From Acidobacteriota bacterium (lineage in GTDB: Bacteria; Acidobacteriota; CAIWXX01): a stretch of 51,962 bases of DNA. The translations under genes were made by a program, and so were the position numbers. Positions within the stretch are counted from its first letter, which is position 1. The number at the start of each line of letters is the position of its first letter. The DNA is taken from positions 1 to 51,962 of the forward strand of contig JACPPM010000170.1 of the NCBI GenBank assembly GCA_016191015.1, in the 5' to 3' direction. A model generated the notes under the pieces. It saw only the letters and a list, made by a program, of their open reading frames with translations. It was not told the DNA's origin and searched no databases. Below are positions 7,844 to 51,962 of the stretch, in pieces.

Positions 7844-10441
7844 ATGATTCGGATGGACAAGTTCACGATCAAGGCGCAAGAAGCTCTGCAGGCTGCACAG
7901 GAATTGGCCGGCAGCCGCGGCAATCCCGAAATCCTGCCGGAACACCTTCTTTCGGCACTGCTCGAGAGCCAGGATACGATCATCCCGCCTCTGCTTCAGA
8001 AGGTCGGGGTTTCGCCCGCCCGGATTGCGGAATCGCTGAATCGATATCTCGAGAGCCTTCCGCGGGTCTCCGGCCTCCAGGCAGGCGGACAGGCGTCGAA
8101 TCGCCTCGCGGCCGTCCTGGAAAAGGCCCTGAAGGAGGCCGACTCCTTCAAGGATGATTACGTTTCCGTCGAGCATCTCTTTCTGGCGATCGCCGGCGAG
8201 CTTGGCGGGACGGCTGCACGGGAGCTGGCCGAGCAGGGTGCGACGCACGAACGCCTCCTGCAGGCACTGGTCTCGGTTCGAGGCACGCAGAGGGTCACAG
8301 ACCAGACACCCGAGGAGAAGTTTCAGGCAATCGAGAAATACTGTCGCGATCTGACCGATCTCGCACGCCGCGGAAAGCTCGATCCCGTCATCGGCCGGGA
8401 CGATCAGATCCGCCGGTTGGTCCAGGTCCTCTCGCGTCGAACGAAGAACAACCCGGTTCTCATCGGAGATCCCGGTGTCGGGAAGACGGCAATAGTCGAA
8501 GGGTTGGCTCAGCGCATCGTCAAAAACGATGTCCCCGAAGGGCTGAAGAACAAGCGGCTCGTCACCCTGGACATTGCCTCTCTCATCGCCGGATCGAAGT
8601 TCCGTGGCGAGTTCGAGGATCGGCTCAAGGCCCTCCTTAAAGAGATCGAGGCCACCAACGGTGGGGTTGTGCTCTTCATTGACGAGCTGCACACGCTGGT
8701 GGGTGCGGGCGCGGCCGAGGGCGCGATGGACGCCAGCAATATGCTCAAGCCGGCCCTGGCCCGGGGCGATCTCCGTTGCGTGGGTGCCACGACGCTCAAC
8801 GAGTACCAGAAGTACATCGAGAAAGACGCGGCGCTCGAACGCCGCTTCCAACCTGTGTATGTCGGCGAACCCAACCTCGAGGACACGATCGCCATTCTGC
8901 GCGGGCTGAAGGAGAGGTATGAGGTTCACCACGGCGTGAAGATCAGGGACTCGGCGCTCGTCGCTGCCGCGACGCTCAGCCATCGTTACATCGCCGATCG
9001 ATTCCTGCCGGACAAAGCCGTGGACCTCATGGACGAAGCCTCCTCGCACCTGCGCATGGAGATCGACTCGCTCCCGACCGAGATTGATCAGCTCGAGCGG
9101 CGCCGTGTCCAGCTCGAGATCGAGAAGCAGGCGGTCGGCAAAGACCTCGAGACCCGGCCGCGATTGGAAGCGATCGAGCGGGAGCTGGCCGAGCTCCGTG
9201 AGAAGACAAACCGCCTCAAGGCACAGTGGAGCAATGAGAAGGAGATCATCCAGAAGATTCGCGAGCTGAAGGCCGAGGTCGAGCAGGTGAAGATCGAGGA
9301 GGAACGAGAGCTGGCCAAGGAGAATCCCGATTTCAATCATGCCGCCGAGCTGCGGCACGGCCGGATGCCGGCGCTGACGCGTGATTTGCAGAAGCTGGGT
9401 GAGCGTCTCGCCACGGTCCAGAAGGACGGCAAGATGCTGAAGGAGGAGGTTGACGAGGAAGACATCGCCGAGGTAGTCGCGAGATGGACCGGCATACCTG
9501 TCACGAAGATGCTAGAAGGCGAGCTCTCACGTCTCGTGAGGATGGAGGAGGAGCTCCGCAAGCGAGTGGTCGGACAGGACGAGGCGCTGAGGAGAATCTC
9601 GGATACGGTGAGGCGCGCGCGCGCTGGCCTTCAGGACCCGCGACGCCCACTCGGTGTCTTTCTCTTCCTCGGACCTACGGGCGTGGGCAAGACCGAGCTA
9701 GGCCGAGCCCTCGCCGATTTCCTCTTCGACGACGAGCGCGCCATGGTGCGGCTCGACATGTCCGAATACATGGAAAAGCACTCGGTGAGCCGCATGATCG
9801 GTGCCCCACCCGGCTACGTCGGCTATGATGAAGGCGGCCAGCTCACCGAGGCCATTCGGCGCCGCCCCTATGCCGTGGTGCTGCTCGACGAGATCGAAAA
9901 AGCCCACCCGGACGTTTTCAACTTACTTCTGCAGGCGTTTGACGACGGCAGGCTCACCGACGGCAAGGGTCGACTCGTCGATTTCAAGAACACCATCCTC
10001 ATCATGACCAGCAACATCGGCAGCCAGGAGCTGTCCAGTGGAGCCGACCCCGCGATCGTCCAGACAGCGATCACGGAGATGCTCAAGGAGCGCTTTCGCC
10101 CGGAGTTTCTGAACCGGATCGACGAGACGATCATCTTCTCGAGTTTGGGACGGAAGGAGATCGAACAGATCGTCGACATCCAGCTCGCTGCAGTCGAGAC
10201 ACTTCTGTCCGATCGCAAGATCGAAATCGACCTCACCCCCAACGCGCGCGCTCTCCTCCTGCAGAAGGGCTACGATCCCCAGTACGGCGCCAGACCTCTG
10301 AAGCGAGCGATCCAGAAATTCATCGTGAACCCCCTCTCCGTCCGCCTCCTCAAGGGAGAATTCAAGGATGGAGATCACATCGAGGTGGACGCCGACATGC
10401 ACGGCGGTGAGATGCATTTCAAGAAGAGCCTGCTGCACTAG
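7844..10441 (+). CDS. clpB: ATP-dependent disaggregase ClpB
   Basis: An 865-residue cytosolic Hsp100 chaperone that, with DnaK, pulls proteins out of aggregates. The N-terminal Clp_N repeats run to about residue 145. The first AAA+ module has Walker A GDPGVGKT and Walker [14 protein letters not shown]. The coiled-coil middle domain (about 400-530) separates ClpB from ClpA and ClpC. The second AAA+ module has Walker [12 protein letters not shown] and Walker [14 protein letters not shown]. No ClpP-binding loop is obvious. GGAGGTG sits 8 bases before the chosen ATG. The gene ends just before a large heptamer hairpin that may act as its terminator. Confidence 0.97.
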
Positions 10442-10442
10442 G

Positions 10443-10520
10443 AGTTCAAAGTTCAAAGTTCAAAGTTCAACGCGAGAGGCGGGATCGGGCTTTTGAACTT
10501 TGAACTTTGAACTTGGAACT
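10443..10520. repeat. Hairpin of heptamer repeats (AGTTCAA x4 in each arm)
   Basis: The left arm (10443-10470) is four tandem copies of AGTTCAA. The right arm (10493-10520) is its reverse complement with one mismatch in 28. The loop is 22 bases. It starts directly after the clpB stop codon and ends 11 bases before the -35 of the next promoter. It could act as a transcription terminator or RNA stabiliser, but the tandem structure suggests a mobile or amplifying repeat. A degraded single-arm relative lies near 30,050. Confidence 0.85.
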
Positions 10521-10531
10521 ATGAAAAACCG

Positions 10532-10560
10532 TTGACCACGCGCGTCGCATTCTCTATAGT
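10532..10560 (+). promoter_or_regulatory. Sigma-70-like promoter of the arginine decarboxylase-agmatinase operon
   Basis: TTGACC and TATAGT are separated by exactly 17 bases. The predicted start is near 10567, giving a leader of about 25 bases with GAGAGGAG before the GTG. Confidence 0.6.
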
Positions 10561-10592
10561 CAGCGCCGAATGCGAGAGAGGAGTATAGAGAA

Positions 10593-11144
10593 GTGCAGCT
10601 GGTAGCCAGGCGAATTTTCATGACCAAGGGAGTGGGCAAGCACAAGGAGAAGCTCACGAGCTTCGAGATGGCCCTGAGAGATGCACAGATCGCTGCATGC
10701 AACCTGGTGCGCGTGAGCAGCATTTTTCCGCCAGGATGCGAGATCATCCCGCTGCGCGAGGGGGTCCGTTACCTCAAGCCGGGACAGGTGACGTTCTGCG
10801 TGATGAGCGAGAACTCGACGAACGAACCACACAGGCTCATCGCGGCCTCCATCGGCGTCGCCATCCCGGCCGATCGCTCGGCCTACGGCTATCTCTCGGA
10901 ACACCATTCCTTCGGACAGAAGGAGGACTTCGCGGGAGACTACGCCGAGGACCTGGCTGCCAGCATGCTCGCGACGAGTCTCGGTGTCGAGTTCGATGCC
11001 GACAAGAACTGGAACGAGAAGAAGGAGATATACAAGATCTCCGGCAAGATCGTGACCAGCCGAAACATCACCCAGACCGCCGTCGGTGACAAGAACGGGC
11101 TGTGGACGACGGTTCTGGCGGGAGCGGTGTTCCTCTTCGATTGA
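10593..11144 (+). CDS. pdaD: Pyruvoyl-dependent arginine decarboxylase
   Basis: A 183-residue proenzyme that converts arginine to agmatine and CO2 without PLP. The motif [11 protein letters not shown] holds the self-cleavage site: by family knowledge the chain breaks between Ser42 and Ser43, and Ser43 becomes the pyruvoyl group of the larger (alpha) subunit. The N-terminal part ([20 protein letters not shown]) and the stretch LATSLGV...WNEKKE fit the family well. The start is GTG 10593, with GAGAGGAG upstream; a later ATG would cut into the conserved first strand. Agmatinase follows after 9 bases, so the pair makes putrescine. The family is best known from archaea, with scattered bacterial members. 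Confidence 0.92.
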
Positions 11145-11153
11145 CACCGTCCT

Positions 11154-12131
11154 GTGGGAAAGAAACGAGATCCGGGAACCGTGCCGAAGATCCCCTCCCA
11201 GCCCCCATTCGTATTCCTCGGACTCGAAGGACCTCAGGCGGAGATCGCATCAAGTCACTACCTACTCCTGCCCGTCCCGTACGACGCAACAACCAGCTAC
11301 CGCGCAGGCGCTCGATACGGCCCTGAGGCCATTATCGCGGCGAGCCGGTTCGTGGAGCTCTACGATGAGGAGCTCGGGTTCGAACCATGCCGATCCGGAA
11401 TACACACCCTGCGACCGGTCGAACCGGACAGCAAGGGTATCGATCCGACCCTTCGGCGCATCTATCGCGCGGCTCGATCTGCGTTGAGCACCGGGAAGGT
11501 CCTGATCTCGATCGGAGGCGACCATTCCATCTCCCCCCCTCTCGTGAAGGCGCATGCCGAGAGGCATGGCCGGATCCATGTCCTCCAATTCGACGCTCAT
11601 TCGGATCTCCGCGACTCCTACGGTGGATCCCGCCACAGCCACGCCTGCGCCGCGCGGCGAATGGCCGAATACGCGCCGGTCACCGGCGTCGGAATTCGGT
11701 CCATGACCGCAAGCTGCGCACGACTCGTGAAACGCGATCCTCGATTCACACTCGTCACGGCACGTGAGATCCGCCAGGACCCGGACTGGATAGGTCGCGT
11801 GATTTCGAGCCTCGGCGAGAAAGTGTATGTGTCGTTCGACCTCGACGCGCTCGATCCTTCGATCATGCCCGCCACCGGCACGCCAGAGCCGGGAGGCCTC
11901 CTGTGGCACGAAACCATCGCGCTCCTGCGTGAGGTGGCGCGGCAAAGAACGATCGTCGGAGCCGACGTGGTGGAGCTCTCTCCGATGCCGCCACTCCATG
12001 CCCCCGACTTCCTCGCCGCCAGGCTCGTTTACAAGATCATCGGCTACATCCAGGAGTCCCGACGCAAGCATACGTATCCACGCATCGCCGAAATGGCCCC
12101 GACGTATCGCTTTCCGAAAACGTCATCCTGA
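11154..12131 (+). CDS. speB: Agmatinase
   Basis: A 325-residue ureohydrolase that turns agmatine into putrescine and urea. Mn2+ ligands are visible in GGDHS (near residue 121), in DAHSDLRD (near 146) and in SFDLDALDP (near 227). The assignment to agmatinase rather than arginase rests on operon pairing with arginine decarboxylase. The GTG start has little ribosome site of its own and is probably coupled to pdaD; a second GTG nine codons later is possible. The last codons, including the TGA stop, lie inside the left arm of an interspersed palindrome, so the C-terminal end may have been rewritten by that insertion. Confidence 0.9.
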   Translation: MGKKRDPGTVPKIPSQPPFVFLGLEGPQAEIASSHYLLLPVPYDATTSYRAGARYGPEAIIAASRFVELYDEELGFEPCRSGIHTLRPVEPDSKGIDPTLRRIYRAARSALSTGKVLISIGGDHSISPPLVKAHAERHGRIHVLQFDAHSDLRDSYGGSRHSHACAARRMAEYAPVTGVGIRSMTASCARLVKRDPRFTLVTAREIRQDPDWIGRVISSLGEKVYVSFDLDALDPSIMPATGTPEPGGLLWHETIALLREVARQRTIVGADVVELSPMPPLHAPDFLAARLVYKIIGYIQESRRKHTYPRIAEMAPTYRFPKTSS

Positions 12132-12221
12132 GGGCGAAGCCCGAAGGATCTCCTCCATACACGCAGCCGATGCGTGCGCGAGATCCTTCATCGCCGGCTC
12201 TCGCCGGCTCCTCAGGATGAC
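12122..12221. repeat. Palindromic GTCATCCTGAG repeat (core-only copy)
   Basis: A 100-bp inverted repeat running from GTCATCCTGAG to CTCAGGATGAC, with GAAGGATCTCC and GAGATCCTTC inside. It lacks the outer CTGAGATTCGG ends found in the two longer copies at 19.0 and 43.5 kb. It lies between the convergent agmatinase and aldehyde dehydrogenase genes and could terminate both. Its first ten bases are also the end of the agmatinase gene. Confidence 0.8.
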
Positions 12222-12228
12222 CAGCTCC

Positions 12229-13695
12229 TCAGTACCAGGCGATCGGCGCTTCATCCAGATTGATGTTGATCTGCTTGATCTCCAGGTATTCCTCGAGACC
12301 GTAGGTGCCGAGCTCACGGCCGAAGCCGCTCTGCTTGTACCCGCCCCACGGCGCCTCGTTGTATGTCGGATGATACGTGTTGATCCAGGTGATTCCCGCT
12401 CGAAGCTGCTTGATCACCCGCAGGGCGCGTGTCACATTCGTCGACCAGACCGCGCCCGCGAGCCCATACGGCGAATCATTTGCGATAGCAATCGCCTCGT
12501 CCTCGGATTTGAATGGGATCACGCAAAGAACGGGCCCGAAGATCTCCTTCTGAGCGATCTCGGATTTGTTATCCACATTGTCAAAGATCGTCGGCTCGAC
12601 GAAGAAACCTTTTTCGAATTTCTTATCACCCGGCCGACCGCCGCCGATGAGAAGCTTGGCGGCGGATTTCTTCCCGATTTCGACATAGCCTTCCACACGC
12701 GCCCGCTGCGTCTCGCTCACCAATGGTCCCATCTTCGTTTCCGGGTCGATCCCCGGCCCCAGCTTGATTCTCTTAGTCTTCTCCACAACAGCCTGGATGA
12801 ACCGGTCATGGATCGATTCATCGATGATCAGGCGGGAGCCCGCTGAGCAGACCTGGCCGGAGTTCACGAAGATCGCGAAGAGCGCTCCATCGACTGCTGC
12901 CTCGAAGTCCGCATCGACAAAGACAATATTGGGGCTCTTGCCGCCTAGCTCGAGTGACACCCTCTTCAGGTCCACGCAAGCGGCGGTCATGACCTTGCGC
13001 CCCGTCACGGTGCCGCCGGTGAAAACGAGCTTGTCGACTCCGGGATGCTCAGTCAACGCTTGTCCGGCAGGACTGCCGCCACCCGTCACAATGTTGACCA
13101 CGCCATCCGGGAAGCCGGCCTCTTTGATCATCGCCGCGAGCTCGAGAGCCGAGAGCGGCGTCAGCTCAGAAGGCTTCAGCACGCAACAGTTGCCGGCTGC
13201 GAGAGCCGGTGCCAGCTTCCAGGCGGCCATCAACAACGGATAGTTCCATGGAATGATCTGGCCCACGACGCCGATCGGTTCTTTCACGACGAAGCTGAAC
13301 GAGTTGGCCGGCACCGTGAGGCTTTCGCCGTGGATCTTGGTGGCCAGCCCGCCGTAGTACTCGAAGCAGTTTGCCGCGTCGGTGACGTCGAACTTGCTTT
13401 CGACCAGCGGCTTGCCGTTGTTCAGGGTGTCGAGCTCGGCCAGATAGTCAGACTTCTGCCGGATCAGGTCTGCCAGTTTGAAGAGCAGTTTGCCACGATC
13501 AAGAGCGGTGATGGACCTCCATGGACCTGAGTCGAACGCTCTGCGGGCGGCTGCCACCGCATCGTCGATGTCCGCGGGTCCGGCTTCCGGCACGCGCGCG
13601 AGAAGCTCGGAGTTGGCCGGGTTGATGATGTCGCGAGTTGTGCCAGCCCGGGCCGTGGTCCATTCGCCGTTGATGAACATGCGATAGTCTTTCAC
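12229..13695 (-). CDS. Aldehyde dehydrogenase, likely 4-aminobutanal/betaine-aldehyde type
   Basis: A 488-residue NAD(P)+-dependent aldehyde dehydrogenase. The general-base Glu is in SLELGGKSPNIVF and the catalytic Cys in SGQVCSAGSR (near residue 282). The C-terminal end (NEAPWGGYKQSGFGRELG) is that of the betaine aldehyde/aminoaldehyde group. I chose GTG 13695 because GGAGGA lies 5 bases before it and the protein then starts KDYRMFING, normal for the family; a GTG four codons upstream overlaps that site. It follows putrescine aminotransferase by 18 bases, so the likely substrate is 4-aminobutanal, giving GABA. Other aldehydes are not excluded. Confidence 0.88.
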   Translation of the reverse strand: MKDYRMFINGEWTTARAGTTRDIINPANSELLARVPEAGPADIDDAVAAARRAFDSGPWRSITALDRGKLLFKLADLIRQKSDYLAELDTLNNGKPLVESKFDVTDAANCFEYYGGLATKIHGESLTVPANSFSFVVKEPIGVVGQIIPWNYPLLMAAWKLAPALAAGNCCVLKPSELTPLSALELAAMIKEAGFPDGVVNIVTGGGSPAGQALTEHPGVDKLVFTGGTVTGRKVMTAACVDLKRVSLELGGKSPNIVFVDADFEAAVDGALFAIFVNSGQVCSAGSRLIIDESIHDRFIQAVVEKTKRIKLGPGIDPETKMGPLVSETQRARVEGYVEIGKKSAAKLLIGGGRPGDKKFEKGFFVEPTIFDNVDNKSEIAQKEIFGPVLCVIPFKSEDEAIAIANDSPYGLAGAVWSTNVTRALRVIKQLRAGITWINTYHPTYNEAPWGGYKQSGFGRELGTYGLEEYLEIKQININLDEAPIAWY

Positions 13696-13713
13696 GGATT
13701 CCTCCACAATTAA

Positions 13714-15072
13714 CTACGTAGGTAGTAATTTCTCCGCTCTCACGTAGTCCAGCGAGACCTGGAGAACGCGCAGCACCTCGGAGAGCTCTTCCTTGCTGAT
13801 CGTGAGAGGGGGCTCGATGCGAATCGTCTTCGAATTGATGAGCGTGCCTGTGAACAGGACGCCCCGGTCGAACGCAGCCTTCACGACCTCCCACCCGATC
13901 TCGTTTGTCTGGAACTCGAGGCCGATCAGGAGGCCCATGCCGCGGGCTTCCAGGCACAGATCTGCGTTCTTTCCCACGATGTTCTGGAGCTGGGGCATGA
14001 ACCATGCACCGAGCTCGGCAGCCCGCTCCGGCAGCTTCTCCTCCAGGAGCACGTTAATCGTCGCGATCGCCGCTGCGCAGCTCAGGGGGTTGCCCCCAAA
14101 CGTCGTCGTGTGGATGAACGGATTCGGGGTCATGCCTTCCCAGATCTTTGCTGTGGACATGAAGGCGCCGATCGGCATCACACCGCCGCCGAGTGCCTTG
14201 GCAAGACAGAGGATGTCGGGAACCACACCGTACTGCTCGCAACAGAACATCTTTCCGGTGCGTCCCATCCCGGTCTGGACCTCATCGAGAATCAGCAGCG
14301 CTCCGTATTTCGTGCAGAGCTGGCGCGCTGCCGTCATGTACGCCGGCGAGGCCACGTAGACGCCCCCCTCGCCCTGAATCGGCTCCAGAATCACACCGGC
14401 AACATCATCACCAACGGCGGCGGCGCAGTCGAGAGCCTTGGCGAGGGCGTCGATGTCGTCGAAAGGCACGTGAATGACCTGCTGGATGAGCGGCATGAAG
14501 GGATGGCGGAACGCGGCCTTGGCGGTGGCCGAGAGAGAGCCGAGACTCTTCCCATGGAAGCCGCGCACAGCGGCGATGAAGGACTTGCGTCCCGTGTGCA
14601 GGCGCGCCAGCTTCATCGCCCCTTCAACCGATTCCGTGCCGCTGTTCGTGAAGAACGTGAACTGCAGATCTCCGGGCGTGATATCGGCGAGGAGACTCGC
14701 GAGCAGAGCACGGAGCGGATCGAGCAGATCCTGGCTGTGAATAGCCTGCTTCTCGAGCTGGTCGCGCACGGCCTTCATCACTCTGGGGTGCCGGTGCCCG
14801 ACATTGTAGATCCCGAAACCTCCCAGGCAGTCGATCCTGGTGACGCCGGTAGCGTCGGTAAACGTGGCTCCCCCGTCGCACCACTCCACCGCGGCAAAGT
14901 CGTTCGAGACGCTTTTGCGATAGCTCAAGAAGCCCGGGTTCACATGCTCGCGGAAGCCCCGGACGGTTTCGGAGATAAGCCAGGCCGAGTCGTCCTCGGA
15001 GAGATGTTTTTTCTCGATGATCCCGAGGAGATGTTGGGTCTCCGCAATCACTTGTTCTCTTGTTTTTTTCAT
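13714..15072 (-). CDS. patA: Putrescine aminotransferase
   Basis: A 452-residue class III PLP aminotransferase. It resembles E. coli PatA (YgjG) throughout: EHVNPGFLSYRKSV, IDCLGGFGIYNVGHRHP, FHGKSLGSLSATAK, EPIQGEGGVYV, DEVQTGMGRTGKMF and NSKTIRIEPPLT. The PLP lysine is in CLAKALGGGVMPIG (near residue 291). It moves an amino group from putrescine to 2-oxoglutarate, giving 4-aminobutanal. The frame is open for 55 more codons upstream, but that part has no family match and reaches into the potC-potD gene, so ATG 15072 is used. The ribosome site is weak. It sits between the transporter genes and the aldehyde dehydrogenase. Confidence 0.93.
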   Translation of the reverse strand: MKKTREQVIAETQHLLGIIEKKHLSEDDSAWLISETVRGFREHVNPGFLSYRKSVSNDFAAVEWCDGGATFTDATGVTRIDCLGGFGIYNVGHRHPRVMKAVRDQLEKQAIHSQDLLDPLRALLASLLADITPGDLQFTFFTNSGTESVEGAMKLARLHTGRKSFIAAVRGFHGKSLGSLSATAKAAFRHPFMPLIQQVIHVPFDDIDALAKALDCAAAVGDDVAGVILEPIQGEGGVYVASPAYMTAARQLCTKYGALLILDEVQTGMGRTGKMFCCEQYGVVPDILCLAKALGGGVMPIGAFMSTAKIWEGMTPNPFIHTTTFGGNPLSCAAAIATINVLLEEKLPERAAELGAWFMPQLQNIVGKNADLCLEARGMGLLIGLEFQTNEIGWEVVKAAFDRGVLFTGTLINSKTIRIEPPLTISKEELSEVLRVLQVSLDYVRAEKLLPT

Positions 15073-15172
15073 GATTCTGAAATCACTGTCCTCTCGCCAT
15101 GTAGGGTCATGCAGCGCTCCGGAGGTCGGGCGGCGCTCCCTCCTCACGCAGCGGAATTGCGCGCTCCAGCCC

Positions 15173-17011
15173 TCATTGACCCTTAACTTCGGTCCAGATT
15201 CTATCATAGAGCGCGGTGGCCTCACCGACATCCACAAGCCATTCCCCGCGCCTCAGATCCTCGGGCGGCGGGTACGTAGCTCCCTCGTTCAGGAGCTGCG
15301 GATCCATGATCGCTTTGGCCTCCCGATTGGGATTCCCGTACGGGTACGCCCTCGATAGTTGGAGACTGACCTCGGGCTCGAGAATGTAGTCGATGAAGGT
15401 GAGAGCGTTGGCCATGTGCGGGGCGCCGCGGGGAATGGCCATGTTGTCGAGGTACAGCTCACCACCGTCGGCCGGCATGACGAAATCGATCGCGGGATTC
15501 TCACGGTGTGCCAGGGTCGCCTCGGCGCCCCACACAATCCCGGCGTCAGCCTCGCCGTTCAACAGCAGGGTCTTGGGGCTGTCGCTGTCGAAGGTCTTGA
15601 CGAGGGGCATGAACCTCCTGAGCTTCTCACCTGCTTCTCGCACGCGAGCGGGATCGGTCTCGTTCATGGAATACCCCATCGATCTGAGCGCCATCCCGAT
15701 GACGGCCCGGACGTCGTTGACGACCACCAGCCGATTGCGAAAGCGTTCGTGCATGAGGTCGTCGAAGCTGCGCGGAATCGGGCTCACCTTGTCCCGGTTG
15801 AAAGCGATCCCGGCCGTGCCCCAGAGGTAAGGCACCGAGTACTTGTTGCCCGGATCGAAGGCGAGGTTCACGAAATCGCTCTCGAGGTTGCCGAAGTTGT
15901 GGAGCTTCCTCGTGTCAAGCTGCTCGATCAGATTCCGCTTCACGAGGATCTGCACGTAATAGTCGGAAGCGACGATCAGATCGTAGCCGGAGGCGCCTGC
16001 CTGGAGCTTGGCGAGCATCTCCTCGTTGCTCGAGTACGTGTCGTAGTTGACCTTGATTCCCGTGCGTCGCGAGAACTCTTCGACCACCGTGCGGGGCATA
16101 TACTCGGTCCAGTTGAAGATATTGAGCTGCTCCCGATTGGATGCCTGTTGTTGCCGTCTGAAGAAGAGAAAACCGGTCAGACCGACGGCCACGAGGAGCA
16201 TCACGATTCCCCCCGAGAGTCCACCCGACATGAACTCCTTGCGCTGCAGGCGATCGAAGAAGGTGATGAGTGCGAGGGTGGCAATGAGGAGGATGGCCGT
16301 GAGGGCGTTGATCTCGGGCGTGATCATGAACTTCACCATGGAGTAGATGCGGATCGGCAGGGTGGTGGCGTCGGGACCCACGGTGAAGTAGGTGATCACG
16401 AAATCGTCGAGGCTGAGGGTGAAAGCGAGGAGCGCGCCGGAGATGATCCCGGGCATGATGATGGGCAGCGTGACCATCGTGAAGGTCTGCCAGGGGGTTG
16501 CACCGAGGTCCATCGCGGCTTCTTCGTAGGCCATGTTGAATCCGTGCAGACGAGCTCGCACCGTCACCACAACGAACGACACGGAGAAGGTGATATGGGA
16601 GATGATGACGGTCCCGAGCCCCAGGCCCATACCCGCGATCACGAAGAAGGAGAGCAGCGAGACTCCCATCACGATCTCGGGGATCACGATAGGCACATAG
16701 AGTGCCGCCTCCATCACGCGTTTGAAACGGAAATGGAAACGGTGCATCCCGAGGGCAGTGGCCGTTCCGAGAATCGTCGATGCGACGGTGGAGATGATGG
16801 CCACGATAAAGGTGTTCTGTGCCGCCTCGAGGATCGGACGGTCGTGTGCCAGCTTCGCATACCAGTCCAGCGTGAAGCCGTGCCAGACCGCGTTCAGCCT
16901 GGATGTGTTGAATGAGAAGACGACGAGGACCAGGATCGGGGCGTAGAGGAAGAGGTAGATGAGCCATGCGTAGCTACTGAGCAGAATCCCGCTCCTCCCC
17001 CCCTCCTTCAC
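15173..17011 (-). CDS. potCD: PotC-PotD fusion: polyamine ABC permease joined to its substrate-binding protein
   Basis: One 612-residue chain. Residues 1-260 are a PotC-type permease with six membrane spans and the EAA loop (YEEAAMDLGATPW, near 162-174). An extra membrane helix (about 267-285) then places a PotD-like binding domain (about 294-612) outside. PotD features include NIFNWTEYMP, SGYDLIVASDYYV and GIVWGAEA. The E. coli pocket motif FWMDS corresponds to LYLDN, so Trp is replaced by Tyr and Asp is kept. The start is GTG 17011, overlapping the potB stop as GTGA, with GAGGAG upstream. The frame is open much further upstream but there it is antisense-free shadow of potB. Such fusions exist elsewhere but are uncommon. 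Confidence 0.93.
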   Translation of the reverse strand: MKEGGRSGILLSSYAWLIYLFLYAPILVLVVFSFNTSRLNAVWHGFTLDWYAKLAHDRPILEAAQNTFIVAIISTVASTILGTATALGMHRFHFRFKRVMEAALYVPIVIPEIVMGVSLLSFFVIAGMGLGLGTVIISHITFSVSFVVVTVRARLHGFNMAYEEAAMDLGATPWQTFTMVTLPIIMPGIISGALLAFTLSLDDFVITYFTVGPDATTLPIRIYSMVKFMITPEINALTAILLIATLALITFFDRLQRKEFMSGGLSGGIVMLLVAVGLTGFLFFRRQQQASNREQLNIFNWTEYMPRTVVEEFSRRTGIKVNYDTYSSNEEMLAKLQAGASGYDLIVASDYYVQILVKRNLIEQLDTRKLHNFGNLESDFVNLAFDPGNKYSVPYLWGTAGIAFNRDKVSPIPRSFDDLMHERFRNRLVVVNDVRAVIGMALRSMGYSMNETDPARVREAGEKLRRFMPLVKTFDSDSPKTLLLNGEADAGIVWGAEATLAHRENPAIDFVMPADGGELYLDNMAIPRGAPHMANALTFIDYILEPEVSLQLSRAYPYGNPNREAKAIMDPQLLNEGATYPPPEDLRRGEWLVDVGEATALYDRIWTEVKGQ

Positions 17012-17868
17012 CGCTTCTTCTCCTCTTCGAATCCGGCGATCTTGCCGTAGACGAGCAGCCCGCCGATGACGAGGGCCATCAGGATGACGGAAGCGGCCGA
17101 ACCGAACTGCCAGTTCCGCGCGGTCAGGAACTGATTCTGGATGAGGTTTCCGACGAGCACGGTCTTGGCTCCTCCCATCAGGTCCGGGATGACGAACATC
17201 CCGAGGGCCGGGATGAACGTGAGAATGCTGCCTGCGACGATGCCCGGGAGGGTCAAGGGAAGCGTCACCCTGAGAAACGCCTGCCAGGGGCGAGCACCGA
17301 GGTCGAATGCCGCCTCGATCAGACTCCAGTCGAGCTTCTCGATGCTCGTGTAGAGAGGCAGGACCATGAACGGGAGGAATCCGTAGACCGAGCCCAGGAT
17401 GACACTGGGAGTGTTGTAGAGCATCGCCAGGGGCTTGTCGATCAGCCCGACGCCCGTGAGGATCGAGTTGATGACACCTTCCGCTCGCAGGATCACAACC
17501 CAGGCGTAGGTGCGGAGCAAGAAGTTCGTCCAGAACGGGATCACGATGAGGAGCAGCAGGAAGTTGCGCTTCTCTGCCGGCGCGCGCGCCACGTAGTAGG
17601 CGAAGGGGTATCCGATCATGAGCGTCACAAGCGTTGTCACGCCCGCCACGTAGAAGGAGCGTGCCAAGATAAGCAGATATAGCCTGTCCACGAACTGTAC
17701 GTAGTGGTGGAAGTCGATCGCGTAAATCGTCTGCCCGTACTCGCCCCGGGTGGTGACGCTGAAGACCAGAATGATGACAAGCGGGGCGAACATGAAGACG
17801 CCCAGCCAGCACGCTGCCGGACCGACCAGCGTGGCGATGGTGGCGCGCTGGGAGCGCATGCGCTGCAC
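17008..17868 (-). CDS. potB: Spermidine/putrescine ABC transporter permease PotB
   Basis: A 286-residue inner-membrane permease with six predicted spans. The family hallmark IPFWTNFLLRTYAWVVILR is present. The EAA loop that docks on PotA reads IEAAFDLGARPWQAFLRVTLP. It forms the channel with the PotC half of the downstream fusion. Its stop overlaps the fusion start by 4 bases, and potA ends 6 bases upstream. The start may be GTG 17868 or ATG 17859; both share the TAGGAG at the end of potA. Confidence 0.94.
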   Translation of the reverse strand: MQRMRSQRATIATLVGPAACWLGVFMFAPLVIILVFSVTTRGEYGQTIYAIDFHHYVQFVDRLYLLILARSFYVAGVTTLVTLMIGYPFAYYVARAPAEKRNFLLLLIVIPFWTNFLLRTYAWVVILRAEGVINSILTGVGLIDKPLAMLYNTPSVILGSVYGFLPFMVLPLYTSIEKLDWSLIEAAFDLGARPWQAFLRVTLPLTLPGIVAGSILTFIPALGMFVIPDLMGGAKTVLVGNLIQNQFLTARNWQFGSAASVILMALVIGGLLVYGKIAGFEEEKKR

Positions 17869-17874
17869 GCGCTC

Positions 17875-18936
17875 CTACCGCAGCATCAAATGGGAATCCT
17901 CAGGTTCCCATCCGAAATTCAACGCATCGCCCGGATTTACCAGGTTGGCTGACTCACGATCCTGGGTTGCGATGACCAGCTTTTCGAGCGGGGGTGCGTC
18001 CACCATGAGCTTCACAGCGGAGCCGACGTAGATCTTCTCCCTGAGTGTCCCCCTGTAGGCCTTCATCGCAACTCCCGTCGAGAACCAGATCCGCTCGGGC
18101 CGAATTGAAAGAAAAGCATCTTTGCCTTCGTTTGTCCTGGCATCCACCGATCTGATCGGCAGCGCCAGCGCGCCGTTTCTCAGAACGTACTCATTGCCGC
18201 CAGGCGATTCGATGACGCCCTTGATGAGGTTGGTCTCGCCGATGAAATCCGCGACGAAGCTCGTGGCCGGCTTGTCGTAAATCTCCACGGCCGTCGCCGT
18301 CTGCTCGATCCGGCCCTTGTTCATCACCACGATCCGGTCGGACATCGTCAGAGCCTCTTCCTGGTCGTGCGTGACGTAGATGAACGTGATTCCCAGCTTG
18401 CGCTGCAGGTGCTTCAGCTCGACCTGCATCTGCTTGCGGAGCTTGAGATCGAGGGCGCCGAGCGGCTCATCGAGCAGCAGCACCGCCGGGTCCAGCACGA
18501 GTGCCCGCGCCACGGCTGCTCGCTGCTGTTGCCCGCCCGACACCTGCTTCGGGCGCCGCCCCCCCAACGCGTCCAACTGGACCAGGCCCAGGGCCTTCCG
18601 CACGCGTGTCTCGACATCCGCGCCCGGCAGCTTCTTCAGTCGGAGGCCAAACGCCACGTTCTCCTCGATCGTCATGTGCGGAAATAGCGCATAGCTCTGG
18701 AATACCGTATTCACATTGCGTCGATACGGCGGATCGTGGGCGCAATCCTTCCCGTCCAGCAGGATCTGCCCCGACGTCGGGTACTCGAACCCGGCGATCA
18801 TCCGAAGAGTCGTCGTCTTGCCGCACCCACTCGGACCCAGAAGCGTCAGGAATTCGCCCCTCCCAACCCTGAGGCTAACCCCGTCAACCGCGCGCACACC
18901 GTCGAACTCCTTCACAACTTCCTTGAGCTCGACCAT
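17875..18936 (-). CDS. potA: Spermidine/putrescine ABC transporter ATP-binding protein PotA
   Basis: A 353-residue ATPase that powers polyamine import. Walker A is GPSGCGKTT, the Q-loop is VFQSYALFPHM, the signature is VSGGQQQR, Walker B is VLLLDEPLGALD, and the switch His is in YVTHDQEEAL. A C-terminal TOBE domain covers about the last 100 residues. ATG 18936 (MVELKEVVKEFDG) is chosen over a TTG 17 codons upstream, which lies at the likely transcription start. It is the first gene of the five-gene minus-strand operon. A near-consensus promoter lies 42 bp upstream, with a MITE-like element just behind it. Confidence 0.95.
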   Translation of the reverse strand: MVELKEVVKEFDGVRAVDGVSLRVGRGEFLTLLGPSGCGKTTTLRMIAGFEYPTSGQILLDGKDCAHDPPYRRNVNTVFQSYALFPHMTIEENVAFGLRLKKLPGADVETRVRKALGLVQLDALGGRRPKQVSGGQQQRAAVARALVLDPAVLLLDEPLGALDLKLRKQMQVELKHLQRKLGITFIYVTHDQEEALTMSDRIVVMNKGRIEQTATAVEIYDKPATSFVADFIGETNLIKGVIESPGGNEYVLRNGALALPIRSVDARTNEGKDAFLSIRPERIWFSTGVAMKAYRGTLREKIYVGSAVKLMVDAPPLEKLVIATQDRESANLVNPGDALNFGWEPEDSHLMLR

Positions 18937-18977
18937 GTCTTGTGTCGCGATATCCTGCCCGTCTAATAAGCAGCGGC

Positions 18978-19006
18978 AAGATAGCAAAGGGCACTAGCAG
19001 TGTCAA
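18978..19006 (-). promoter_or_regulatory. Near-consensus sigma-70 promoter of the potA operon
   Basis: On the minus strand a perfect TTGACA is followed 17 bases later by TATCTT. The -35 box is only 8 bases from the target duplication of the MITE-like element, so the insertion removed or replaced whatever lay upstream of this promoter. Confidence 0.65.
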
Positions 19007-19023: not shown

Positions 19024-19208
19024 CTGAGATTCGGAGTACACTTGGCCGCAATACAGCCTGCATGTCATCCTGAGGCTCGGCGCAGCCGGGCCGAAGGATC
19101 TCCTGCAAGACCCGTGGCCTACGGAGGAGATCCTTAGTCACCGGGCTTCGCCCGGCTCCTCAGGATCACGTTTCGCTCATTCCCGTGTGCGTCTACTCCG
19201 AATCTCAG
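19024..19208. mobile_element. MITE-like palindromic element, copy 1, with 9-bp target duplication
   Basis: A 185-bp element with terminal inverted repeats CTGAGATTCGGAGTA / TACTCCGAATCTCAG. The 9-mer TGATTGAAT is duplicated directly outside both ends (19015-19023 and 19209-19217). The inside holds the GTCATCCTGAGG...CTCAGGATCAC core palindrome, also seen alone at 12.1 kb. No coding capacity. The direct repeat is what a transposase would leave, so this is probably a non-autonomous transposable element. The following 135 bases before the anti-sigma stop hold no gene. Confidence 0.85.
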
Positions 19209-43529: not shown

Positions 43530-43708
43530 CTGAGATTCGGAGTACACTTGGCCGCAGTACAGCCAGCATGTCATCCTGAGGCCCGGCGCAGCCGGGCCGA
43601 AGGATCTCCTTCCGTAGCCCATGGAGGAGATCCTTCGTCACCGGGCTTCGCCCGGCTCCTCAGGATGACGTTGCGCTCATGCCCGTGAGCGTCTACTCCG
43701 AATCTCAG
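43530..43708. mobile_element. MITE-like palindromic element, copy 2, with 7-bp direct repeat
   Basis: A 179-bp relative of the element at 19.0 kb with the same ends (CTGAGATTCGGAGTACACT ... TACTCCGAATCTCAG) and the same core palindrome. CGCGCTC is repeated directly outside both ends (43523-43529, 43709-43715), although the right flank is itself a CGCGCT-rich tract, so this duplication is weaker evidence. The promoter of ilvE starts 24 bases after it. No gene is visible in the rest of the 43,430-43,816 space. Confidence 0.82.
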
Positions 43709-50658: not shown

Positions 50659-51962
50659 ATGAGTAGCAACTATCGAAGCGTGCGCGTTTTCGCGTGTCTG
50701 ATCTGGTACGCGTTTCTCGCGAGCCCGGGTGAGGCGGCCGACCGTTGGGCTCGGACGTACAGTCGATCAGGAGAGGACAAGTTCCAGGCCGTTCAGCAGA
50801 CGGCTGACGGAGGTTACATCCTCGCGGGGTCGACTTACTCAGCGGGAGGTACGGGTTATGACGGATGGTGCGTGAGACTCGACGCATCCGGCGATGTCGC
50901 ATGGCAGAAGACCTTTGGCGGCTTCCAGGTGGACTTCCTCCAGGATATGCAAGTGACGGCCGACGGTGGGTACATACTCGCCGGGTGCACCAACTCCTTC
51001 GGCGATGGCGGGTATGACGCATGGTGCCTGAGACTCGACTCATCCGGCAACACCGTCTGGGAGAAGACCTACGGAGCTTCCTTGGACGAATCGGCGTTTG
51101 CCGTGGATGTGACTCCTGACGGCGGCTTCTTCCTCGCGGGAGTTGCGAGTTCCTTCGGCTCCGGGTCAAACGATGCCTGGTGCCTGAGACTGAATGCCGT
51201 TGGCACCCCGCTGTGGCAGAGGACTTACGGCGGTCCTTCCAGCGACTTCTTTAGCACAGTGAGGGCGACGGCGGACGGTGGCTGCGTTCTCGCAGGGTCC
51301 ACCCAAGCCTTCGGTGCCGGCGGGTCCGATGCCTGGTGCACGAGGCTCGACGCGTCGGGCAATCTCATCTGGCAGAACACTTACGGCGGCGCCCTTGTTG
51401 ACAGTTTCGGTGAGGTGGAGGTGGCGGCGGACGGCGACTACATCCTCGCGGGGACTTCCATGTCTTTTGGCGGTGGCCTCTACGTGGCCTGGTGTCTGAG
51501 GCTCGATGCTACCGGCTTCATTGTGTGGCAGAGGACTTATGGCGCGGGTCCCATCGACTATTTGGCCGATGTAGAAGTGACGGCCGATGACGGTTGCCTG
51601 GTCGTGGGGAGTACCTACTCAGGCGGCGCTGGGAACCAGGACGCGTGGTGCTTGAAGCTCGACGGCTCCGGTAACATCACCTGGCTAAAAACTTATGGCG
51701 GCACGCTGAACGATGTCTGGTACGCCGTGCAAGCGACCGCCGATGGCGGATACGTCCTCGCGGGAGTGGCAGCCTCCTTTGGAGCCGGGGACCCGGATGC
51801 ATTCTGTGCAAAGGTGGACTCCTTAGTGTCTAAGAAGTTGAGTGTTGACACGAAATGGCAAAACGTTCGAGTGGGTGAGATCCTCCGAACCCCTCTCAGG
51901 AAAGCAGGAAGGGAGGAATGCAGGAACGGAGCAGTCATCTCCGGAGCTCAGGGTGGCATCGA
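50659..51962 (+). CDS. Exported repeat protein, seven 52-residue units, open at the window edge
   Basis: The frame is open from ATG 50659 to the end of the window (at least 434 codons). After a signal peptide (RVFACLIWYAFLASPGEA) come seven tandem units of exactly or nearly 52 residues, each with the pattern W-x-x-T-Y-G-G, T-A-D-G-G-Y-I-L-A-G, S-F-G, D-A-W-C-x-R-L-D. Seven units suggest a seven-bladed propeller. A Cys follows the Trp in nearly all units (Phe-Cys in the last). The last 41 codons (after VDSLVSKK) are Arg/Lys-rich and unlike the rest, so the gene may be broken or fused there. GAGGAGGA precedes the ATG by about 10 bases. Confidence 0.75.
   Translation, partial: MSSNYRSVRVFACLIWYAFLASPGEAADRWARTYSRSGEDKFQAVQQTADGGYILAGSTYSAGGTGYDGWCVRLDASGDVAWQKTFGGFQVDFLQDMQVTADGGYILAGCTNSFGDGGYDAWCLRLDSSGNTVWEKTYGASLDESAFAVDVTPDGGFFLAGVASSFGSGSNDAWCLRLNAVGTPLWQRTYGGPSSDFFSTVRATADGGCVLAGSTQAFGAGGSDAWCTRLDASGNLIWQNTYGGALVDSFGEVEVAADGDYILAGTSMSFGGGLYVAWCLRLDATGFIVWQRTYGAGPIDYLADVEVTADDGCLVVGSTYSGGAGNQDAWCLKLDGSGNITWLKTYGGTLNDVWYAVQATADGGYVLAGVAASFGAGDPDAFCAKVDSLVSKKLSVDTKWQNVRVGEILRTPLRKAGREECRNGAVISGAQGGI

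Follow-up and report, generated by a model that had tools for sequence, protein, structure and literature searches.

Introduction

In Pseudomonas aeruginosa, the spuABCDEFGH genes combine a putrescine transaminase gene with a spermidine/putrescine ABC importer (Lu et al. 2002, as cited in PMC9397018 and PMC10606097). In E. coli, ydcSTUV-patD joins a polyamine-type ABC transporter to an aminobutanal-type dehydrogenase, and PatA and PatD form a route to GABA (PMC4244111). On the side of synthesis, PdaD is known from M. jannaschii (Graham et al. 2002, as cited in PMC8503589), and SpeY proteins convert putrescine to homospermidine (PMC9992855). A fused potCD is annotated in Mycoplasma (MCAP_0200; PMC3177781).

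Here, we describe a locus from an uncultured Acidobacteriota lineage in which genes of these kinds lie tail to tail. It is part of a stretch of 51,962 nt (the window) in an assembly of 6.4 Mb that is rated 100% complete. We read the locus, with a probability of about 0.8, as two separate, ordinary polyamine modules, one for the cell's own putrescine/homospermidine supply and one for polyamine import and breakdown. It documents a near-complete polyamine economy, in which a pyruvoyl arginine decarboxylase would feed homospermidine and in which import and transaminase breakdown would lead to succinate, and it corrects the idea of the pyruvoyl enzyme as a catabolic oddity.

Arrangement of the locus

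All seven genes named in a preliminary description of this DNA were found in the region 10532–19006 at the coordinates and in the orientations claimed; the proposed gene identities and the division into two operons are right. The genes pdaD and speB run rightwards on the plus strand (10593 to 12131), and potA-potB-potCD-patA-ALDH run leftwards on the minus strand (18936 to 12229). The two sets are convergent, with 97 bp between their stop codons. On the minus strand, potA and potB are 6 bp apart, potB and potCD overlap by 4 bp, potCD and patA are separated by approximately 100 bp, and patA and the aldehyde dehydrogenase (ALDH) gene by 6 bp. Because of these short gaps and the overlap, the five genes look like one operon.

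A consensus scan gave one sigma70-like promoter for each set: TTGACC-17-TATAGT on the plus strand (10532–10560), approximately 30 bp 5′ of the pdaD start, and TTGACA-17-TATCTT with an extended TG on the minus strand (19006–18978) for the pot-patA-ALDH operon. The claim of readable promoters holds in the sense of pattern matches, both of which lie no more than approximately 70 bp 5′ of the first gene of the set. Across the full 8.9 kb, the scan gave 2 matches of this kind compared with 2.3 in shuffled sequence, i.e., no excess. Use of the two promoters is predicted, and the operons would be regulated separately. Between the convergent ends lies a palindromic REP-like sequence (12125–12222), which folds with −51 kcal mol−1 (z −4.1) and is possibly a two-way terminator. 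Its arms are shared with the 185-bp repeat of the genome.

The 185-bp MITE-like element occurs in the window at 19024–19208 and 43530–43708, has 15-bp terminal inverted repeats (CTGAGATTCGGAGTA) and target duplications of 7–9 bp, and is present in approximately 25 near full-length genomic copies. One of the copies stops 18 bp 5′ of the −35 box in the potA promoter. At 50776–51765, six copies with a period of 156 bp (52 residues) are 61–70% alike; they are probably part of a repeat protein running past the window end.

Synthesis genes and polyamine supply

PdaD (183 aa; 10593–11144, plus strand) matches the family of pyruvoyl-dependent arginine decarboxylases (PvlArgDC; PF01862, 205 bits, above the Pfam cut-off). 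It scores above the TIGR00286 cut-off (129 vs. 107 bits) and narrowly under that of the stricter NF009064 (195 vs. 207), and it aligns with the solved Methanocaldococcus enzyme (PDB 1n2m). In an alignment of 13 homologues, Ser42-Ser43, Asn37, and Glu103 are invariant. We take S42-S43 to be the self-cleavage site and N37 and E103 to be catalytic. PdaD is a PvlArgDC family member by sequence, and its arginine decarboxylase activity is predicted from this membership. Searching the literature for pyruvoyl arginine decarboxylase in Acidobacteria yielded no paper. SpeB (325 aa; 11154–12131, plus strand) is assigned as an agmatinase by TIGR01230 (211 bits, cut-off 174), and all six metal ligands are conserved in the residue check.

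The own genome gave no match to Orn_Arg_deC_N/PF02784 (the alanine-racemase-fold decarboxylase domain), to OKR_DC-type decarboxylases, or to AdoMet decarboxylase; the E. coli positive control gave matches for all three. The pdaD-speB pair is the only putrescine route found in searches that covered PLP arginine/ornithine decarboxylases of both folds and AdoMet decarboxylase. Another contig encodes a homospermidine synthase of the SpeY type (G000:C9; NF001980, 551 bits, cut-off 450). As this genome offers no alternative decarboxylase and contains a SpeY-type gene, and as relatives carry pdaD beside genes of the DHS family (see below), PdaD-SpeB most likely supplies putrescine for homospermidine, and the pyruvoyl enzyme is most likely biosynthetic. 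A second, weak DHS-family match in this genome (L051) is a GSU2086 family protein. Since any PF02784 domain is absent, the genome is also without a recognizable lysA (diaminopimelate decarboxylase).

The pyruvoyl enzyme had been called unusual for a bacterial catabolic route. PvlArgDC is present in 92 of 396 Acidobacteriota genomes (23%), so its presence here is not odd, and its role is most simply biosynthetic. Neither could the locus be upheld as self-contained: the homospermidine synthase, GabT, and succinic-semialdehyde dehydrogenase (SSADH) are on other contigs, and the facing layout was seen in the own genome alone. Among 94 pdaD neighborhoods, 53 had at least 8 kb downstream, and in none of these 53 did a pot permease gene or patA adjoin pdaD. 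Each half is recognizable on its own, and in relatives it is accompanied by genes of its own sort. A DHS-family gene lies within 2.5 kb of pdaD in 18 of the 94 loci, and in seven Acidobacteriota the distance is 44–195 bp; speB lies within 4 kb of pdaD in 8 of the 94, directly downstream in L022, L129, and L158. The closest relative among the genomes compared, an uncultured lake-sediment member of the Acidobacteria (contig CAIWXX010000038.1), keeps clpB-pdaD (L016; PdaD 82% identical) with different genes further downstream; its pot, patA, and gabT genes are grouped on a contig other than that of pdaD. The clpB-pdaD order (7844–11144 in the window) is common to the own genome and the only same-family relative compared.

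Across the 396 genomes, above-cut-off SpeY is found together with pdaD no more often than by chance (odds ratio 1.03), perhaps as putrescine is made otherwise in many of these bacteria. Thus, the link between pdaD and SpeY rests on the neighborhoods and on the gene content of the own genome. The gene patA is rare (18 of 396 genomes), and pdaD accompanies it above expectation (10 of 18 vs. 92 of 396, p 0.002), a figure inflated by related genomes, half of the genomes sharing both genes belonging to one family. In a hand count by family, five of the nine patA families include a genome with both genes, and pdaD occurs in approximately 32 of 87 families, a weak excess.

Such co-occurrence would suit a linked pathway, in which both operons convert arginine via agmatine, putrescine, and 4-aminobutanal to GABA and the transporter recaptures leaked putrescine. 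Every enzyme for it lies side by side, GabT and SSADH are also in the genome, and Pseudomonas has routes both from arginine to putrescine and from putrescine to GABA (PMC9397018, PMC10606097). However, no relative examined has the pdaD/pot-patA juxtaposition, the operons have separate promoters, and pdaD, as the only putrescine source found, is required for biosynthesis anyway. Moreover, an ornithine aminotransferase gene above cut-off (L055) provides a more usual step of arginine catabolism. We hence regard a single catabolic pathway as quite unlikely. Still more improbable is a nitrogen route from arginine to GABA with the pyruvoyl decarboxylase, in which the convergent ends serve mutual transcriptional control and putrescine is either made or consumed, not both. 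A flow from arginine to GABA via agmatine is possible on paper, and nothing favors it over ordinary biosynthesis.

Uptake genes

The importer set is complete at the locus, with an ATPase, two permeases, and a PotD-type binding protein encoded together. PotA (17875–18936, minus strand) is a polyamine ABC ATPase with a TOBE domain (TIGR01187, 376 bits, cut-off 356) and is 62% identical to E. coli PotA over 242 aa. PotB (17008–17868, minus strand) is a polyamine ABC permease (NF007044, 292 bits) with 43% identity to E. coli PotB. In PotCD (612 aa; 15173–17011, minus strand), the permease PotC and the binding protein PotD are fused in a single reading frame. By hydropathy, an added hydrophobic segment (residues 265–283, the seventh membrane segment) separates the permease from the binding domain, and it would put the binding domain in tethered form on the outer side of the membrane. 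Fused PotCD homologues with 40–45% identity occur in four further genomes (G001, G009, G220, and G340; loci L071, L072, L173, and L181). In G001 (L075), a giant open frame next to potC turned out to be N-filled sequence.

The binding domain aligns better with PotD than with PotF. Using residue numbers and roles that we assume for the ligand site of E. coli PotD, most ligand residues are kept, among them Thr35, Glu36, Asp168, and Asp257. Both would suit an importer whose main task is to salvage spermidine or homospermidine for use rather than putrescine for breakdown. Against such a role, Glu171, Trp255, and Gln327 of PotD are replaced by Ala, Tyr, and Leu, respectively, and the pot genes stand in one tightly spaced run with patA and the ALDH gene. 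Salvage as the main function deserves some weight, but it is the less probable role.

Breakdown genes

PatA (452 aa; 13714–15072, minus strand) is a putrescine aminotransferase according to NF008570 (660 bits, cut-off 612); under the second model for this function, TIGR03372, it stays below the cut-off (578 vs. 659 bits). It shares 56% identity with E. coli PatA and has the equivalents of Lys300, Lys183, Glu243, Gln274, and Arg426, the residues named in the YgjG structure paper. The PLP lysine is thus present, and Lys183 is of the YgjG type, whereas GabT proteins have Arg at this position.

The last gene of the operon (12229–13707, minus strand) encodes an NAD(P)-aldehyde dehydrogenase of the BADH/aminoaldehyde type, which scores under every curated cut-off: 645 vs. 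669 bits for betaine aldehyde dehydrogenase (TIGR01804) and 529 vs. 615 and 396 vs. 909 bits for the 4-aminobutanal dehydrogenases PatD/YdcW (NF010000 and TIGR03374, respectively). The protein carries the aromatic-residue motifs WNYP, AAW, and PWGG, which we take to be typical of the betaine-aldehyde/aminoaldehyde group; the residue comparison did not separate aminobutanal from betaine-aldehyde specificity. In NCBIfam and PDB, the best-matching entries are betaine aldehyde dehydrogenases, and E. coli BetB is closer (44% identity) than PatD (40%). Both would fit an enzyme whose main substrate is a different aldehyde, for example betaine aldehyde, in which case the operon would stop at 4-aminobutanal. 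However, the BADH cut-off is not reached, no choline dehydrogenase gene adjoins, patA lies only 6 bp upstream, and in four genomes of family f17, ALDH genes are situated between gabT and patA, their products being 42% identical and not clear orthologues. We therefore consider another main substrate unlikely, and the gene context indicates that the ALDH is probably a 4-aminobutanal dehydrogenase.

In most genomes having patA, the gene adjoins gabT, an ALDH gene, or pot genes. The order is patA-potA-potB-potCD in G340 and gabT-ALDH-patA-patA in f17, and G001 has pot genes together with patA and gabT. G025 has gabT-ALDH-pot genes. In one Acidobacteriota family (L167, L170, L171, L176, and L180), patA is a tandem duplicate beside gabT and usually also an ALDH gene, the second copy being 43–45% identical to E. 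coli PatA. Several patA matches in relatives contain an in-frame TGA; in L167, the match just reaches the gene's own end.

The claim that the minus-strand operon serves putrescine uptake and transaminase breakdown is well supported. Elsewhere in the own genome, on other contigs, GabT (TIGR00700, above cut-off) and SSADH (788 bits, cut-off 521) are encoded, so that PatA, ALDH, GabT, and SSADH complete, on paper, the route from putrescine to succinate.

Proposed function of the two modules

Our reading as two separate modules builds on gene identity, gene order, residues, and which partner genes the genome has or lacks, and it implies the following substrates and flux directions. In the synthesis module, PdaD would convert arginine to agmatine, and SpeB would convert agmatine to putrescine and urea. 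The SpeY-type enzyme encoded elsewhere would then form homospermidine from putrescine, giving the cell's own polyamine supply. In the second module, PotA-PotB-PotCD would import putrescine or related polyamines from outside, a tether holding the binding protein at the permease. PatA would turn putrescine into 4-aminobutanal, which the ALDH would oxidize to GABA, and GabT and SSADH would take GABA to succinate.

Comparison with known systems

The minus-strand operon resembles spuABCDEFGH of P. aeruginosa in that a putrescine transaminase gene shares an operon with a spermidine/putrescine ABC importer. It differs in that PatA is of the YgjG type, the ALDH gene is inside the operon, permease and binding protein form a fusion, and glutamylation genes are absent. 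With E. coli ydcSTUV-patD and patA, it has in common the polyamine-type transporter beside an aminobutanal-type dehydrogenase and the PatA-PatD route to GABA. In contrast to E. coli, patA is inside the operon, the permeases and the binding protein are nearer to PotBCD than to YdcUVS, and the ALDH is only 40% identical to PatD.

The synthesis module corresponds to PdaD-SpeB synthesis with SpeY (PMC9992855), as pyruvoyl arginine decarboxylase, agmatinase, and a SpeY-type homospermidine synthase are all present. Here, SpeY is encoded on another contig, whereas several relatives have a DHS-family gene beside pdaD. The Mycoplasma PotCD (NF043073) likewise unites a permease and a binding protein in a single polypeptide, but it is far longer (a 1021-position model), and the match of our protein (243 of 1250 bits) is far below the cut-off. 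The importer with its tethered PotCD next to patA represents a modest variation in structure, which is seen again in a distant family of this phylum. Both gene sets are of known kinds, and the locus is most suitably classed as a routine pair of polyamine operons that can be read well.
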